From Tetracentron sinense (taxonomy: Eukaryota > Streptophyta > Magnoliopsida > Trochodendrales > Trochodendraceae), in contig CM026565.1 in the NCBI GenBank assembly GCA_015143295.1, forward strand, positions 25,304,052 to 25,368,051: 64,000 bases of DNA, read 5' to 3'. The translations under genes and the position numbers were made by a program. The stretch's first letter is position 1. Each line of letters starts with the position of its first letter. Of the stretch, positions 18,495-55,203 are shown in pieces. The notes under the pieces were generated by a model. It was given only the letters and a program-made list of their open reading frames with translations, made no database searches and was not told the DNA's origin.

Positions 18495-20276
18495 GGGTAA
18501 ATTACACTCACCTCCCTTGAGGTTTGGTGTAATTTAAGAAACCTCCAATCTTGTTTCTGAAATTGCACTGACCTCCCCTCCTATCAGACTCATCCTACCT
18601 ATCATATCCATCCTATTAACTCCATTAACTATTGATATTATTTTCTAATTTTACCCTTATTACTTAGAGGTAACACGTAAGCTTAGTTAGTTCGAAAGCT
18701 CAAACAAAAAAACACATAAACGTCCCAAGCCGCACATGTCCCTTTTAACACCCATTAACTAAGATTAAGATTAAGTCATCCTTAGGGTTTATCCATCTAG
18801 CCTTAGTTTTTGGAGAAAAAATAGCCTTAGGTTGATTATGCTTAACCACAATTAAAGGGGTTCTACAAGCTGCCACATGTCTCTTTTAACATCCATTAAC
18901 TGTGGTTAAGGCTCACTCACCCCTAGGATTCATCAATTTATCCTTGGTTTTAAGAAAAAATATATATATATTAATCCTAAGTTAATTATGTTTAACCACG
19001 GTTAAAGGATCTCTACAAGCCGCCACTTGTCCTTTTAACACCTAGTCACTATGGTTAAGATTCACTCACACCAAAGTTACATCCATCTAACATTGGTTCT
19101 TAGAAAGGAAAAAAAAATTAAGTTGATTATGCTTAACCCACACATGTCCCTTTTAACACCCATTAACTAAGATTAAGATTAAGTCACCCTTAGGGTTTAT
19201 CGATCTAGCCTTAGTTTTTAGAGAAAAAAATAACCTTAGGTTGATTATGTTTAGCCACAATTAAAGGGGGTTTTACAAGCCGCCACATGTCCCTTTTAAC
19301 ATCCATTAACTGTGGTTAAGACTCACTCACCCCTAGGATTCATCAATTTATCCTTGGTTTTCAGAAAAAAAAAAAAAACAAATATTAATCCTAAGTTAAT
19401 TATGTTTAACCACGGTTAAAGGATCTCTACAAGCCACCACCTGTCCTTTTAACACCTAGTCACTATGGTTAGGATTCACTCACACCAAAGGTTCATCCAT
19501 CTAACATTGGTTCTTAGAAAGAAAAAAAAAATTAGGTTGATTATGCTTAACCACAACTAAAGTAGGCTCTACAAGCTGCCATGTGTGTCCTTTAACACCC
19601 ACTAACTATGGTTAAGATTCACTCACCCCTAGGATTCATCCATCTAACCTTGGTTTTTAGAAAAAAAATACTTAGGTCGATTATGCTTAACCACAATTAA
19701 AGGGGGTTTTATAAGCCGTCACGTGTTTCCTTTAACACCCACTAATTGTGGTTAAGATTCACTCACCCCTTGGGATTTATTCATCTAACCTTAGTTTTAA
19801 GAAAAAATAATTAACCTTAGGTTAATTATATTCAACCTCAATTAAACAATCTCTATAAGCCACCATGTGTCTCTTTTGATACCCACTAACTAGGGTTAAG
19901 ATTCACTTACCCTAGAGTTCATCTATCTAACATTGGTTTTAGGAAAAGAAATATATATTTACCTTAAGTTGATACTATTAACCTTGGTTTTGAAAATATA
20001 TATTAACCTTAAGTTGATACTACTAACCTTGGTTACTAAACCCAATTATCATTTATTTTATTGTATTAGTTGACTTTTAAAGGGTAATTTAGACATTTTA
20101 AAATGTTTAAATGATGACATCATCAAAGTTCACCTATAAAAGTAACGGCCAACTAATGAAAAGGGGTATCTGTTACAGAAACCAAAGTTGAGGGGAGGTT
20201 AGTATAATTTCAGAAACAAGATGAGAGGTTTCTGAAATTTCACCAAATCTCAGGGGGAGGTGAGTGTAATTTACTC
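18495..20276. mobile_element. Mutator-like MITE containing a tandem array
   Basis: Ends GGGTAAATTACACTCACC (18495) and GGTGAGTGTAATTTACTC (to 20276) are inverted copies, and the TIR similarity runs about 90 bp. The 9-bp flanks ATTTCTTTC (18486-18494) and ATTTCTTTT (20277-20285) match at eight of nine positions, the target size of Mutator-like elements. No transposase. The interior from about 18725 to 19950 is a diverged tandem array. Confidence 0.8.
18725..19950 (+). repeat. Tandem array of about nine 145-bp units
   Basis: Each unit reads roughly CCACATGTCCCTTTTAACAC, then a GTGGTTAAGATTCACTCACC block, then ATCCATCTAACCTTGG, a run of A, and TTAGGTTGATTATGCTTAAC. Units start near 18735, 18874, 19024, 19140, 19283, 19437, 19577, 19718 and 19863. 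They are clearly diverged from each other. All face the same way, unlike the inverted arrangement elsewhere in the window. Confidence 0.75.
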
Positions 20277-21873: not shown

Positions 21874-22438
21874 TCAAGCATCAGACCAGACGATGCTCAA
21901 TTTGCCCCAGTCATTGCTAGGGACTTCCAGGGCTTCCCACACAGCTCTCGACGCATCTACTACGTTATTACCCCATAGTTGAGTCACACTGGTCGACCAC
22001 CTTGGCCACCACACTCTTCCCATTACCAGTAATGGTGATATCTTTTAGACACCGGTTCCGATTGTCGAACCACCCAGTGGAAAGTGCTACCACCGGTGTG
22101 TCGTCTGAGTGGTACTGATCGTCACATGCTGATGCTCCGCCACCGTCACCACCCTCCTGAAAGCTGTTCAGTGTCAAAACTGCCTGTGTAGCGCTGGACA
22201 CTGGCGGTGAACATTGGTAAGTGGTGTAGGGCTGATCTTGGACACAACATTCAGAGTTGTTCTCAGTGTTGCATTGTCCCTGAGGGGGTTCCGTTCCCTT
22301 GATTTGTCCGCTTGGCGTGCAATCCTGAGCTTCAACCCTGAGGTAATCTGCAACAAGGAGAAGGACGATAAGGAGACGAAATGCCCTTGAACAAAAGCTC
22401 TTACTCATCGTCTCTATACTCTTTTTTTTAATGCTCAA
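21874..22438 (-). pseudogene. Kiwellin / ripening-related secreted protein, decayed
   Basis: The minus-strand frame from 22438 codes a signal peptide (the more likely start is the internal Met at 22408, [20 protein letters not shown]) and the cysteine-rich kiwellin core: [25 protein letters not shown], then [20 protein letters not shown] and [14 protein letters not shown]. It then meets TAA. Immediately beyond, in another frame, the known C-terminal part resumes (NNVVDASRAVWEAL ... IVWSDA, TGA at 21876-21874). The segment missing between the two is the short Cys-containing linker normally present there (about a dozen residues), removed with loss of frame. Kiwellins are apoplastic, disulfide-rich defence proteins (family knowledge). 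Here the double-psi-barrel domain would be truncated, so a functional product is unlikely unless the frame loss is a sequencing error. Confidence 0.8.
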
Positions 22439-25071: not shown

Positions 25072-25475
25072 TATATATATTATTTTTAAAACATTTAATA
25101 AATAATTAATTGATTATTAAATAAAAAAATTTAGAAAAAACAAATTTAGTAAAAAGAATATTTAAATTTTTTTGAGGAAAAAATAATTTCTTTTAAAAGT
25201 TTTAGGAGAAAATACATTTACACCCTGAGGTTTGACAAAAATACACATGGACCCCTCAGGTTTCAGAAAATACATTAGGTACTTCTACTTTTCAAAATAA
25301 TGACACTTACACTCCTTTCATCAGTTCACCGTTAGTCAATGACAGAATGGTGATGTCATGTGATAAAGTGGTATAAACTACAAAAATTGTCATCTCTACT
25401 AAAATTATCATTTTTCACTTTTCTCATGTACGATACAAAATTGCCCTCATTTTTAAATGAAGTCAAATCCTCTAA

Positions 25476-25510
25476 GGTGATAATCGGATTTGACAAATCC
25501 GATTATCACC
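25476..25510. repeat. 35-bp palindrome, left border
   Basis: Seventeen-base arm GGTGATAATCGGATTTG, one central A, and an exact complementary arm. It lies directly outside the forward module in the left arm of the long-TIR element. Confidence 0.9.
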
Positions 25511-25986
25511 CCTTGAAGTAGTCGCGTGTCCCTTTTGACACCCCTTAATTGTGGTTAAGATTCATTCACCCCTATGGTTCACTCACCCATCCACGTGTCC
25601 CTTTTCTATCATATTATATTTTTTTAATTAAAAAATATTTTGAAGAATTTTTTAATATTAAAAAAATTAATAATTAAAAAAAAAACCAAGGATAGGCGGG
25701 TGAACCCTAAGGTTGGGTGAATCTATCCCCATCTAAGGGGTGTCAAAAAGGACACGTGGCCATCCCTAAGGTTCACCCACCCATCCTTGGTTTTTTTTTT
25801 TTAATATTAATTCTTTTTTCTAATATTTTAATATTAAAAAGCCTTAAAAATAGTTTTTAAATTCAAAAAAAAATAAAAATTAATATGGTAGAAAAGGGAC
25901 ACGTGGATGGGTGAGTGAATCCTAGGGGTGGGTAAATATTAATCACAGTTAAGGGTTGTCTAAAGGGACAAGTGGCTACTTCAAGA

Positions 25987-26021
25987 GGTGATAACCGGAT
26001 TTGTCAAATCCGGTTATCACC
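25987..26021. repeat. 35-bp palindrome, right border
   Basis: Seventeen-base arm GGTGATAACCGGATTTG, one central T, and an exact complementary arm. It differs from the left palindrome at one base pair, changed on both strands of the stem, and at the centre. Confidence 0.9.
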
Positions 26022-26379
26022 GTAGAGGATTTGGCTTCATTTAAAAATGAGGGGGCAATTTTGTATATGAGAAAAGTGGAAAATGAAACTTTAGTAGAAA
26101 GGGCATTTTTGGTAGTTTATACTATTTTATCACATTACATAACCATTTTGTCAATTGACTAGCGGTTAACTGATGGAAGGGGTGTAAGTGTCATTATTTT
26201 GGAAAGTAGGAGTACCTAATGTATTTTCTGAAACCTGAGGGGGTTTATGTGTATTTTCGTCAAATCTAGGGGTGAAATGTATTTTCTCCTAAAAAATATT
26301 AACTTTAAGAGCTAATTTATTTTTATCGAGTTAAATATATTTTTTCTAAAAACTAAAGTTAGATTGTTGAATCTTATAG

Positions 26380-26800
26380 GTTAGTAAATCTTAACCACAA
26401 TTAATATGAATTAAAAGGGACATGTGTTGACATGAGAGTGCAGTTAAACTCGAGGAGATTTCAATCGCAATTGATTGTGATCCAGTATGTAAATTCAGAG
26501 ATCGAATCATAGCCAATCACAATTGAATTCGGGAAGAGTTTAATTGCACTCACAGGTCAACATGTGTCCCCTTAACCCCTATTAACTATGGTTAGGATTC
26601 ACTAACCCTTTGGGTTCAACAATCTTACCTTAGTTTAAAAATAATTAACCTTAGGGTTAAGAATTTTTAACCATAGGATTAATTTTTAAATTTTTTTCTA
26701 AAAATTGAACTCCGCTCTAAGAGTTAGTGAGTCTCTATCTAAAATTAAATGGGGGGGGTTAAAAGGACACGTGTTGATCTTTGGGTGCGATTGGTCAATG
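26380..26800. repeat. Inverted modules with border stems
   Basis: Reverse module near 26385 (CTTAACCACAATTAATATG), border-like stems near 26440 and 26525 (AATTGAATTCGGGAAGAG), forward module near 26560 (TATTAACTATGGTTAGGA) and another reverse copy near 26740. The whole forms a diverged palindrome centred at about 26490. Confidence 0.5.
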
Positions 26801-27773: not shown

Positions 27774-30133
27774 ATGGCTAATCTTGAGGAAGGCAAGTTG
27801 CTTCTCTCTCATCTCCTTTTTGTGCTTTATGTTGTTTTGTTTTCCTAATTTGTCCATAGGAGGGGGGTGGGGAAGCAAAGCTTGCACCTTTGGTGGTGTG
27901 AGTATTCCACCACATGTTTGATTCGTGATCAAGTCTGAGGGGTGTGATTAGGGGTGGTTATTGAACAAAATGTTAGTGAACTACTCAGGCTCGGCTTGTT
28001 AAAAGATCAAGTATCGTTCATTTATTTAGTAAACGAGCCGAGCATGAACACCATTTTCGAACTCGTTTGGTAAACGAGCCGAGCTTGAACACACCCCTAC
28101 TCAGCTCGATAAAAGCTTGATTCGATTATATATACAAATTAACCTACTAAAATATTTAAAATATACTTATTTCATTTAAATATTAAAATTAAGTAGTACA
28201 TAATGTATTTTATATGATAAGAATACCATTTATATAATTATAATCTTATACTAAAATTTTTGTTACAACCGTGATTTCTTTGCCTAGGATAATAAAGTGA
28301 ATTTTTTTACCTAATAAAATAGTTAAATCTAATAAAACAAGCTGCTCATGAATTGCTCATGGTCGGCTTGAGTTCGGTTAGTAAGGTTCGAACTCGTTTA
28401 TTTAATAAACAAGTCAAGCTTGAACATGATTTCCTAGCTTGTTTAAAAAACGAACAAGCTTTAACACACCACTACTCGGCTCGGCTCGGCTCGATATCCC
28501 CCCTAGGTGTGATGGTGAAATATCCACCCGTTTGTTAACCTAGAACATATTCTAACCATACTAATTGTGGTTGTGATCTAACAGTATATCTTGAACCGAA
28601 AAAAAAGGAGGGGGTGGGGGGCAACAACATTTCCTAAGAGACTTCATAATCAACAAAGAAACAACTTAATGTGATTCTTTCTAAGCAACTCTGTCCCTGG
28701 TCCATTTGACGTTCTCCAAAATTATACTTTTACCCTTGGGGATTTCAAGCTTGCTGCTGTAATATCAGGTTTACAATTCGGGCGTGGATGGAATCTGTCT
28801 AGACTTATCTTAGGCAATTAGTTATACAAGTCACTTCTCCTTTTGTTAATGATGGGATCGTTTGTGACGGTCAATTTGCAAGGATAGGGTAAATTATTCT
28901 TCTACTAATAATCTAGTAAGATTTTGTTGATTTGTTCATTTTATATCGGTTAATACTTATGTCATACTTCAAAGTATACCGATTATCAAGAGGATATGTT
29001 AATGCTCCACCCTTCCCCCAGTGATTGTTTATTTGTGATTTTATTGGTTTAATTTAGGGGAAACTGCACAAGAGGCCTCACCGGGAGATTCAGAACCCTC
29101 TGTTTCAGTGTGGAGCAAGATTTCCACACTTAGTACCATAGCTTGGGAAACATACAGAAGAAAACCAATCTCATATTGGATTCTACTAGGTCTAAGCAGT
29201 GCAGCAATGCTTGTGGCTTTTCCTGCTTCCAGCCTTCTATCTCGTCTCTATTTTGCGAATGGGGGCAAGAGCAAGTGGATCATCTCATGGGTGGCAGTTG
29301 CAGGGTGGCCTCTAACTGCTCTTTTCTTAGTTCCTGTGTACTTCCGTAAAGTTCGGCCCACTCCTCTTACTTTCAAACTCACTCTATCTTATATTGTCTT
29401 GGGCTTCTTAAGTGCTGCTGACAATTTTATGTATGCATGGGCATATGCTTACCTCCCAGCATCAACTGCTTCTCTTCTGGCAGCATCATCCCTTGTGTTT
29501 TCTGCACTGTTTGGGTATTTTATAGTGAAAAACAAAATGGACGGATCCACTGTAAATGCCATCGTGATTATCTCTGCAGCCATGGCTATCATTGCGCTGG
29601 ATTCAAGCTCAGACAGATATAGCAATGTCAGTAACAGACAATATGCCCTGGGGTTTATAATGGACATTATGGGATCAGCTCTCCATGGTCTTATCTTTGC
29701 TCTTTCAGAGTTAGTTTTCGTGAAGTTATTGGGGAGAAGATCTTTCCATGTTGTGTTGGAGCAGCAGGTCATGGTTTCATTTTTTGCTTTTGTGTTTACC
29801 ACAATTGGGGTTATTGTGAATAGAGATTTCCAAGCAATGAAGACTGAAGCTAGAGATTTCAAGAATGGTGAAACCTCATACTATATGGTTCTCTTCTGGG
29901 GTGCCATTACTTTTCAGCTGGGTGTTTTGGGAGGCACTGCTGTTCTTTATTTGGCTTCCACTGTGCTGGCTGGTGTTCTTAATGCAATAAGGGTACCTCT
30001 CACAAGCATTGCAGCTGTTGTCTTGTTTAACGACCCCATGAGCGGTTTCAAGATCCTCTCATTGATCGTTACCTTTTGGGGATTTGGATCGTATATTTAT
30101 GGCAATTACTCTGTGAGTAAAGTATCTGCTTAA
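27774..30133 (+). CDS. Purine permease (PUP10/21-like), two coding exons
   Basis: Coding exons 27774-27792 and 29058-30133 give a 364-residue protein (start MANLEEGETAQEASPG). ATG at 27774 is in good plant context (AATATGGCT). Exon 1 ends GAGGAAG and the intron starts GCAAGT and ends TTTAATTTAG: a GC-AG intron that keeps frame exactly (19 + 1076 bases). A GT donor 4 bases on would break the frame. The protein has about ten hydrophobic helices of the drug/metabolite transporter fold, with PUP hallmarks (KPISYWILLGLSSAAM, PLTSIAAVVLFNDPMSG, FWGFGSYIYG). PUPs are proton-coupled membrane carriers of purines, cytokinins and related compounds; the substrate here is unknown. Length is normal for the family. 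A transcribed leader probably starts near 26.95-27.1 kb. AATAAA is at 30391-30396. Confidence 0.88.
27949..28505. mobile_element. hAT-type MITE inside the permease intron
   Basis: Starts TAGGGGTGGTTATTGAAC and ends CGATATCCCCCCTA, with a perfect 8-bp target duplication GGTGTGAT (27941-27948 and 28506-28513). The interior is AT-rich between GCTCGGCTCG / CGAGCCGAGC-rich arms. It accounts for nearly half of the 1265-bp intron. Confidence 0.85.
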
Positions 30134-54410: not shown

Positions 54411-54444
54411 GACTTAGTGGGATTACCCAAAAAAAAAAAGACAG

Positions 54445-54830
54445 GATTCTCTCAAGTTCAAACCGGGGAGAATCTCTCCGGTTTGAACCCCTAAAGGTCA
54501 CCATGTGTCTCCTTTGACACCCCTTAACCATGGGTAAGGTTCACCCACCCCTAGGGTTCACTCACCCATCCTTGGATTTTTTTATTTATTTATTTTTTAT
54601 ATTAATTATTATTTTTTAAATTAAAAAAACTATTTTTAGAGTTTTTTAACATTAAAAACTGTTTTTTAATTTTGAAAAAAGAATTAATATTTTTTAAAAA
54701 AAAAACAAGGATGGATGGGTGAACCCTAGGGGTGGGTGAACCTTACCCATGGTTAAGGGGTGTCAAAGGAGACACGTAGCGACCTCTAGGGGTTGAAACT
54801 GGAGAGATTCTCCCCAGTTTGACTGTAGCT
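54445..54830. repeat. Hairpin-bordered inverted module pair, element 3
   Basis: Left border stem TTCAAACCGG ... CCGGTTTGAA (54457-54487). Forward module 54500-54580 with CTTAACCATGGGTAAGG, AT-rich centre, reverse module 54705-54775 with CTTACCCATGGTTAAGG, and right border stem AAACTGG ... CCAGTTT (54796-54820). The arms as a whole are inverted copies over about 130 bp. Confidence 0.75.
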
Positions 54831-55203
54831 TCGCCTGTGGTGTTGTTACCTTAACAAACAAACAAAAAAACGAAGACTTAGTGGACCCAACTTTTGCACA
54901 TAAGAGAGAGGGAGGGTAAAGGGAGGAGAGAGAGTGGGTAAGTGATGAAAAGTAATGAAATGAAGGACATTGATTGGGATGTGGGGAGAGAGAAAGTAAT
55001 GATGAAATGACAAAATCATCCTTCAAATAATTTTAGTATTTTGTAAACTTTTGTTTACACCTTTTTTTTTTTCATTATAGAAATTTACTTAACGTTTTGC
55101 ACGGAGGCATCCGCTTTATAATAGTAGAGATGTATGTACCTAGTAATCTCTAATAATAGAAACCCTTAAATTGTCGTTTTTTGAACACAAGTCACTCATT
55201 TGA

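Follow-up and report, generated by a model that had tools for sequence, protein, structure and literature searches.

The two 35-bp palindromes that border a foldback in this part of the Tetracentron sinense genome very probably lie in sub-terminal position within the terminal inverted repeats of a family of foldback, Mutator-like MITEs, which is non-autonomous and has thousands of ends, as judged from sequence features and copy number. At the one base pair in which the two palindromes differ (pair 9), the arms change independently of each other, that is, by stepwise decay. The palindrome arms would be inverted copies of a terminal recognition motif for a transposase supplied in trans, and this joint reading is given a probability of about 0.8. 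The window, i.e. the whole stretch of DNA analysed, comprises 64,000 nucleotides, and positions without a locus name refer to it; the genome searched for relatives comprised 1.16 Gb in 1479 contigs. A compensated pair seen in two copies is weak evidence where the site mutates readily and there are thousands of copies, and the coincidences to be expected can be calculated, which here gave a value close to the number seen (7 observed, 5.0 expected).

The foldback element and its palindromes

The halves of the foldback are inverted copies of each other, with 82% identity over 1137 columns when the window locus (L001) was compared with itself by blastn (L001 1225-2319), and its inverted-repeat arms include 182 nt at 88%. 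The palindromes are placed symmetrically within this structure of about 1.1 kb, the parts of which are as follows.

25200..26294, no strand: entire foldback, about 1.1 kb, which aligns over its length with its own reverse complement (inverted repeats I1, I2, I3 and I13)
25460..26037, no strand: inner module common to the wider MITE family, starting AAGTCAAATCC and finishing GGATTTGGCTT
25460..25475, plus strand: outer motif on the left, AAGTCAAATCCTCTAA, with which the direct-inverted-direct end opens
25476..25510, no strand: left sub-terminal palindrome, 17-bp arms, pair 9 = T:A (25484:25502)
25511..25625, no strand: left inner arm, which contains the family core (CGTGTCCCTTTTGACACCCCTTAA...) and is the complement of 25872-25986 (inverted repeat I1, 88%)
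25872..25986, no strand: right inner arm of the foldback (inverted repeat I1, 88%)
25987..26021, no strand: right sub-terminal palindrome, 17-bp arms, pair 9 = C:G (25995:26013)
26022..26037, minus strand: outer motif on the right, reading AAGCCAAATCCTCTAC on that strand, recognised by sequence inspection and by a similar motif in relatives

The left palindrome reads GGTGATAATCGGATTTG-A-CAAATCCGATTATCACC and the right palindrome GGTGATAACCGGATTTG-T-CAAATCCGGTTATCACC, each of 17 + 1 + 17 bases with fully complementary arms. An earlier note on this DNA had described two perfect 35-bp palindromes with a single compensated difference, and this description was correct: the stems differ only in the pair formed by bases 9 and 27, which is T:A on the left and C:G on the right, the latter being the common form in the family. 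The central base also differs on the forward strand, and is A in both palindromes if they are read inward, each from its own end. Chance does not account for either palindrome: folded as single-stranded DNA, they were matched by none of 200 dinucleotide shuffles (z -8.59 and -8.28).

The window copy carries extra outer arms (25200-25459 and 26038-26294), and the set of copies with such arms is the rarer one; its outer flank gave 79 and 89 matches on the two strands, and these 168 include a sister type that lacks the palindrome. In relatives, too, sequence resembling the outer motif flanks the palindrome on its outer side. A nested origin, in which the inner module had inserted into an outer foldback and made its own duplication, was rejected, as the bases on either side of 25460-26037 repeat each other in inverted and not in direct orientation. 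The list of open reading frames for the window included none of at least 80 amino acids with a listed start that overlaps 25200-26294.

Family assignment and end anatomy

A hairpin peculiar to this locus was ruled out, since the palindrome is a family-wide transposon end, found both among genome matches and in relatives. A genome search with the left 35-base palindrome, allowing up to 3 mismatches, gave 1590 forward matches and none for the reversed control, while the flank just inside the palindrome, in the form of the main subfamilies, gave 4648 and 4608 matches on the two strands at the same threshold. Loci L030-L059 were chosen by this inner flank, and 24 elements could be paired. Flanking direct repeats of 9 bp with at most one mismatch were present in 11 of the 24 (seven exact), compared with 1/110 in a cross-pair control that is somewhat flattering to the result, the control boundaries being fixed and those of the search being scanned according to a motif rule. 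The other 13 paired elements showed no 9-bp duplication, one of which (L048) had an exact repeat in another pairing pass. The 11 elements with repeats are 345-396 bp long, and the window copy is longer.

Target-site duplications of about 9 bp, as expected of MULEs, therefore occur in the family (the 11/24, with further cases elsewhere), and none was seen by eye around the full-length element of the window. The long terminal inverted repeats of MULEs are likewise represented, by the foldback of the whole length and by its 182-nt arms, and the elements are short, non-coding, of high copy number and bounded by terminal inverted repeats, as are MITEs. Helitrons have neither target duplications nor terminal inverted repeats and carry a single 3' hairpin; a Helitron identity was ruled out by the flanking and inverted repeats and by palindromes at both ends.

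Long ends of the family follow a constant order of outer motif, inverted motif, direct motif and core, and the inverted and direct motifs together make up the palindrome. Two examples are GCCAAATCCTCTACGGT / GATAACCGGATTTGG / CAAATCCGGTTATCACC / CCTAGAGG and CTCTCGAGTT / AACTCGAGAG / CTCTCGAGTT / GAACC / CCTAGAGG. Direct-inverted-direct ends are found in several sequence types, to all of which the inner flank is common. A palindrome with a score of at least 8 was present in 36 of 57 scored ends, a score reached by 0/285 shuffles; the 21 ends without a good palindrome include some that are truncated or decayed and others that are short, with one motif. The type labels assigned in this scoring are loose, and what was taken from it are the totals with and without a palindrome and the printed sequences. 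Many genome matches of the window module start within the palindrome, near base 32 of the query. The short ends may represent the ancestral state, or deletion between the direct motifs may have produced them.

Elements with a short end can be flanked by 9-bp repeats, exact in L054 and with one mismatch in L030 and L053; the repeat of L041 (1899-2259) is also exact, being nearly a run of A and thus close to a homopolymer. The sister type that shares the outer flank of the window copy (L060-L062) had the palindrome in none of its five printed ends, the motif being joined straight to the core. In the type with ends CAAACCGGGGAGA...TCTCTCCGGTTTG, each of the six ends seen had the same arm mismatch, and two of these ends lie in the window near 54502 and 54778. 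Hybrid ends, with the inverted unit of one type and the direct unit of another, occur in L046, L050 and L052, and the shared flanks of L050 and L052 indicate that these are probably one duplicated insertion.

The nearest described kinds that were found are Muta1 and MuTAnT. Like the family described here, the MuTAnT elements of Medicago truncatula are short, non-autonomous, modular foldback Mutator-like MITEs, with 9-nt target duplications where these are visible, but they target TA microsatellites, and the available part of their description, which was the basis of comparison in place of sequence, includes no matched palindrome at each end (PMC4486113). Muta1 of Aedes aegypti, a 'type 2 foldback element', also makes 8-9-bp duplications and has long terminal repeats, which carry a palindromic motif at the terminus and repeated motifs in sub-terminal position; as far as the source describes it, however, the palindrome of Muta1 is terminal, spans 10 bp and is imperfect, and its repeats are units of 12 bp in tandem, whereas the family in the window has 17-bp arms that lie inside an outer motif (PMC5225508). 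Plant MULEs with tandem terminal repeats also have duplicated end units and still transpose and amplify, but the duplications described in the available part of that report are copies of long terminal inverted repeats, mostly in tandem, and not a motif of about 20 bp in direct-inverted-direct order (PMC3310237). These comparisons, made with described kinds by their descriptions, suggest that the family belongs to a known kind of element. No report of it was found among titles and the openings of abstracts, a scope that does not show the family to be unreported.

Change at pair 9

The earlier note had proposed that an excess of compensated over single changes, among copies collected genome-wide, would support its claim. 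At pair 9 no such excess was present: exact genome counts, taken with all other stem positions intact and any middle base, gave 1001 copies with C:G, 138 with T on one arm only (75 and 63 by strand) and 7 with T:A. A model in which the arms change independently, with the observed per-arm frequency of 0.066, expects 999.0, 141.9 and 5.0 copies, respectively (chi2 0.87, p = 0.35). The upper 95% limit on the 7 leaves room for at most 9.4 extra doubles, so that a homogenised share could account for no more than 6.4% of changes. These counts display only copies in which the rest of the stem is intact, and uneven ages or subfamily inheritance could hide or mimic a small signal of compensation.

One-armed intermediates were also found directly among copies fetched by similarity, where T was confined to one arm at an end of five of the seven other copies (L002-L006); as L003/L004 and L005/L006 look like pairs of near-duplicates, the five represent about three distinct groups. 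L007 had T on both arms at pair 9, and L008 had C on both arms in the matched copy, with a third end at the same locus that was one-armed. The argument against chance, that mutation would break one side first, loses its force with these copies, in which the one-sided forms exist.

A wider sample of 48 ends gave a similar picture over the whole stem, with 701 pairs unchanged, 100 altered on one arm, 14 altered on both arms with pairing kept, and 1 altered on both sides without pairing. Changes in other copies are, accordingly, mostly uncompensated (100 one-armed and 14 two-armed), which is the outcome the earlier note had named as contrary to a compensated stem. The sample comprised T1-like ends within 9 mismatches of a typed consensus, including the two ends of the window; 19 of 67 ends were set aside because they had been picked by a palindrome search, L009 was skipped as lying at the same place as L001, and L006 was dropped as identical to L005. 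It is nonetheless partly selected: L001-L008 were fetched by a query that held both palindromes (70 of its 546 bases), the ends of L010-L029 are partners or neighbours of picked palindromes, and an end of L020 with an indel inflates the mismatches. Among the 14 two-armed changes, seven are transversions at pairs 4 and 15, and seven are changes of C:G to T:A or of G:C to A:T in the CCGG box (pair 9 in four cases, pair 10 in two and pair 11 in one), one of which is the window's own.

The C of pair 9 lies in CCGG, next to a CpG. In plants, CCGG is a CHG/CG context that is methylated. This context suits a reading of the pair-9 change as deamination of methyl-cytosine, which the type of change makes probable. 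The T:A/C:G difference between the palindromes of the window would then be a separate C-to-T change on each arm of the left palindrome.

Two-armed changes and their possible sources

A different pattern was seen at two other positions. Pair 15 was changed from T:A to G:C on both arms in 14 copies and on one arm in 1, against 1001 unchanged, where independence expects 0.2 and 28.6. Pair 4 was G:C in 14 copies and T:A in 390, with only 7 one-armed copies where independence expects 33.5, in a table that mixes a 35-place pattern (the 14, a lower bound) with 33-place patterns (the 390 and 7). Two-sided changes, then, show no excess over one-sided ones at pair 9 (1001/138/7) and a strong excess at pairs 15 and 4, possibly from few founders: these figures count copies and not events, for the only two transversion pairs measured genome-wide, and each two-armed subfamily may descend from a single founder. 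As two-armed forms far outnumber one-armed forms at these pairs, the amplifying lineages appear to have carried matched arms, perhaps through few founders.

The earlier note had offered selection on the stem, or homogenisation templated by the hairpin, as the cause of the compensated pair. Neither is supported at pair 9, where 7 doubles compare with 5.0 expected, and the stem is missing in some relatives; what stands is that arms were matched in the amplifying lineages, at pairs 15 and 4. The preferred reading, in which the arms are copies of a recognition motif, would accommodate both patterns. A copy that still transposes would carry two matching motifs, the matched units being favored as recognition sites and not as a hairpin, while an inserted copy would decay neutrally, arm by arm. 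Long terminal repeats of MULEs carry transposase recognition sites, and better recognition by the transposase has been proposed as the benefit of duplicated MULE ends, according to the part of that report available (PMC3310237). With its many copies, the family may serve as a natural experiment: at the tested pair the arms of decaying copies change independently, and amplifying lineages differ by two-armed changes.

How the two-armed changes arose is a separate matter. One founder event for each subfamily difference, such as recombination between ends, would need neither selection nor templating, and is somewhat unlikely: the two transversions measured, with 14 and 390 copies, may each go back to one founder, and hybrid ends do occur, but exchange of a whole end would still require a matched donor, and palindromes that are perfect or nearly so are found repeatedly, in sequence types that clearly differ. 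A more doubtful proposal, offered tentatively, is that both arms are rewritten together in amplifying copies, either by template switching between copies of the motif or by selection for two identical transposase sites, and that new palindromes thereby arise repeatedly on an unchanged core. Template switching can create and perfect stems in a single event, and it resembles the present case as a process that makes or perfects inverted repeats and leaves two-sided changes, as far as the available part of the source describes it (PMC8794818); nothing of the kind was detectable here at pair 9 in inserted copies. Template switching could have produced both the ends in direct-inverted-direct order and the subfamilies with two-armed changes while leaving no visible trace at that pair after insertion. 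If the arms are indeed rewritten together, the family records how the recognition sites of a transposon change without losing their symmetry.

Selection of the stem itself, as a DNA hairpin or cruciform used in transposition or replication, with its pairs kept complementary, is improbable. It would explain why two-armed transversions separate subfamilies, with pairs 15 and 4 far from independence, and why palindromes of different sequence occupy the same place on the same core, but matched recognition motifs account for these counts with no need of a hairpin. A stem under selection also fits poorly with the 21/57 scored ends that lack a good palindrome (some of them truncated or decayed), with its absence from the five ends of the sister type (L060-L062), with the 9-bp repeats of elements that have one short end (L054, L041, L030 and L053), with the mismatch kept in 6/6 ends of the CAAACCGGGGAGA/TCTCTCCGGTTTG type, and with the hybrid ends of L046, L050 and L052. 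Homogenisation of the arms after insertion, by hairpin-templated repair or by template switching in replication, is very improbable, for even though there is precedent for template switching that creates and corrects stems (PMC8794818, in the part available) and a double switch could leave a direct-inverted-direct build, two-armed T at pair 9 was close to expectation (7 against 5.0, with a ceiling of 6.4% of changes) and one-armed changes outnumbered two-armed ones by 100 to 14 in the wider sample.

Other variants of these ends were noted. In L016 (2817) and L032 (1466), the outer arm reads GGTTATCACC or TTATCACC in place of GGTGATAACC, as if a 10-base piece had been inverted. A related end, CAAATCCTCTACGGTTATCACC, without the inverted unit, lies in L002 near 2000-2160, in L016 near 2250-2340 and in L028 near 1190, and in L002 and L016 the sequences of the palindrome arms are also found apart, with a longer spacer between them.

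Several other features of the window were observed. Positions 54430-54850 hold a member of the CAAACCGGGGAGA...TCTCTCCGGTTTG end type, one end of which has CCGG...CCGG and the other CTGG...CCAG, a C:G to T:A difference on both arms in the same pattern as in the two palindromes described above. An array of tandem units of about 140 bp and of 414 bp occupies 18733-19953, and the core in its consensus resembles the core of the MITE family (CACATGTCCCTTTTAACACCC...), so that it is apparently the core of a mini-transposon turned into a tandem repeat. A neighbouring repeat at 26405-26570 has a palindromic end that is decayed and of yet another sequence (CAATTGAATTCGGGAAGAGTTTAATTG), an end type that is better preserved in L045 and L057. 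Two reading frames had matches: one at 21968-22438 to kiwellin-1 (KWL1, E 6.6e-47), which covers part of the profile and may be incomplete, and one at 29108-30133 to a purine permease (PUNUT, E 1.8e-97). Both purine permeases of the PUNUT kind and kiwellins are plant families.
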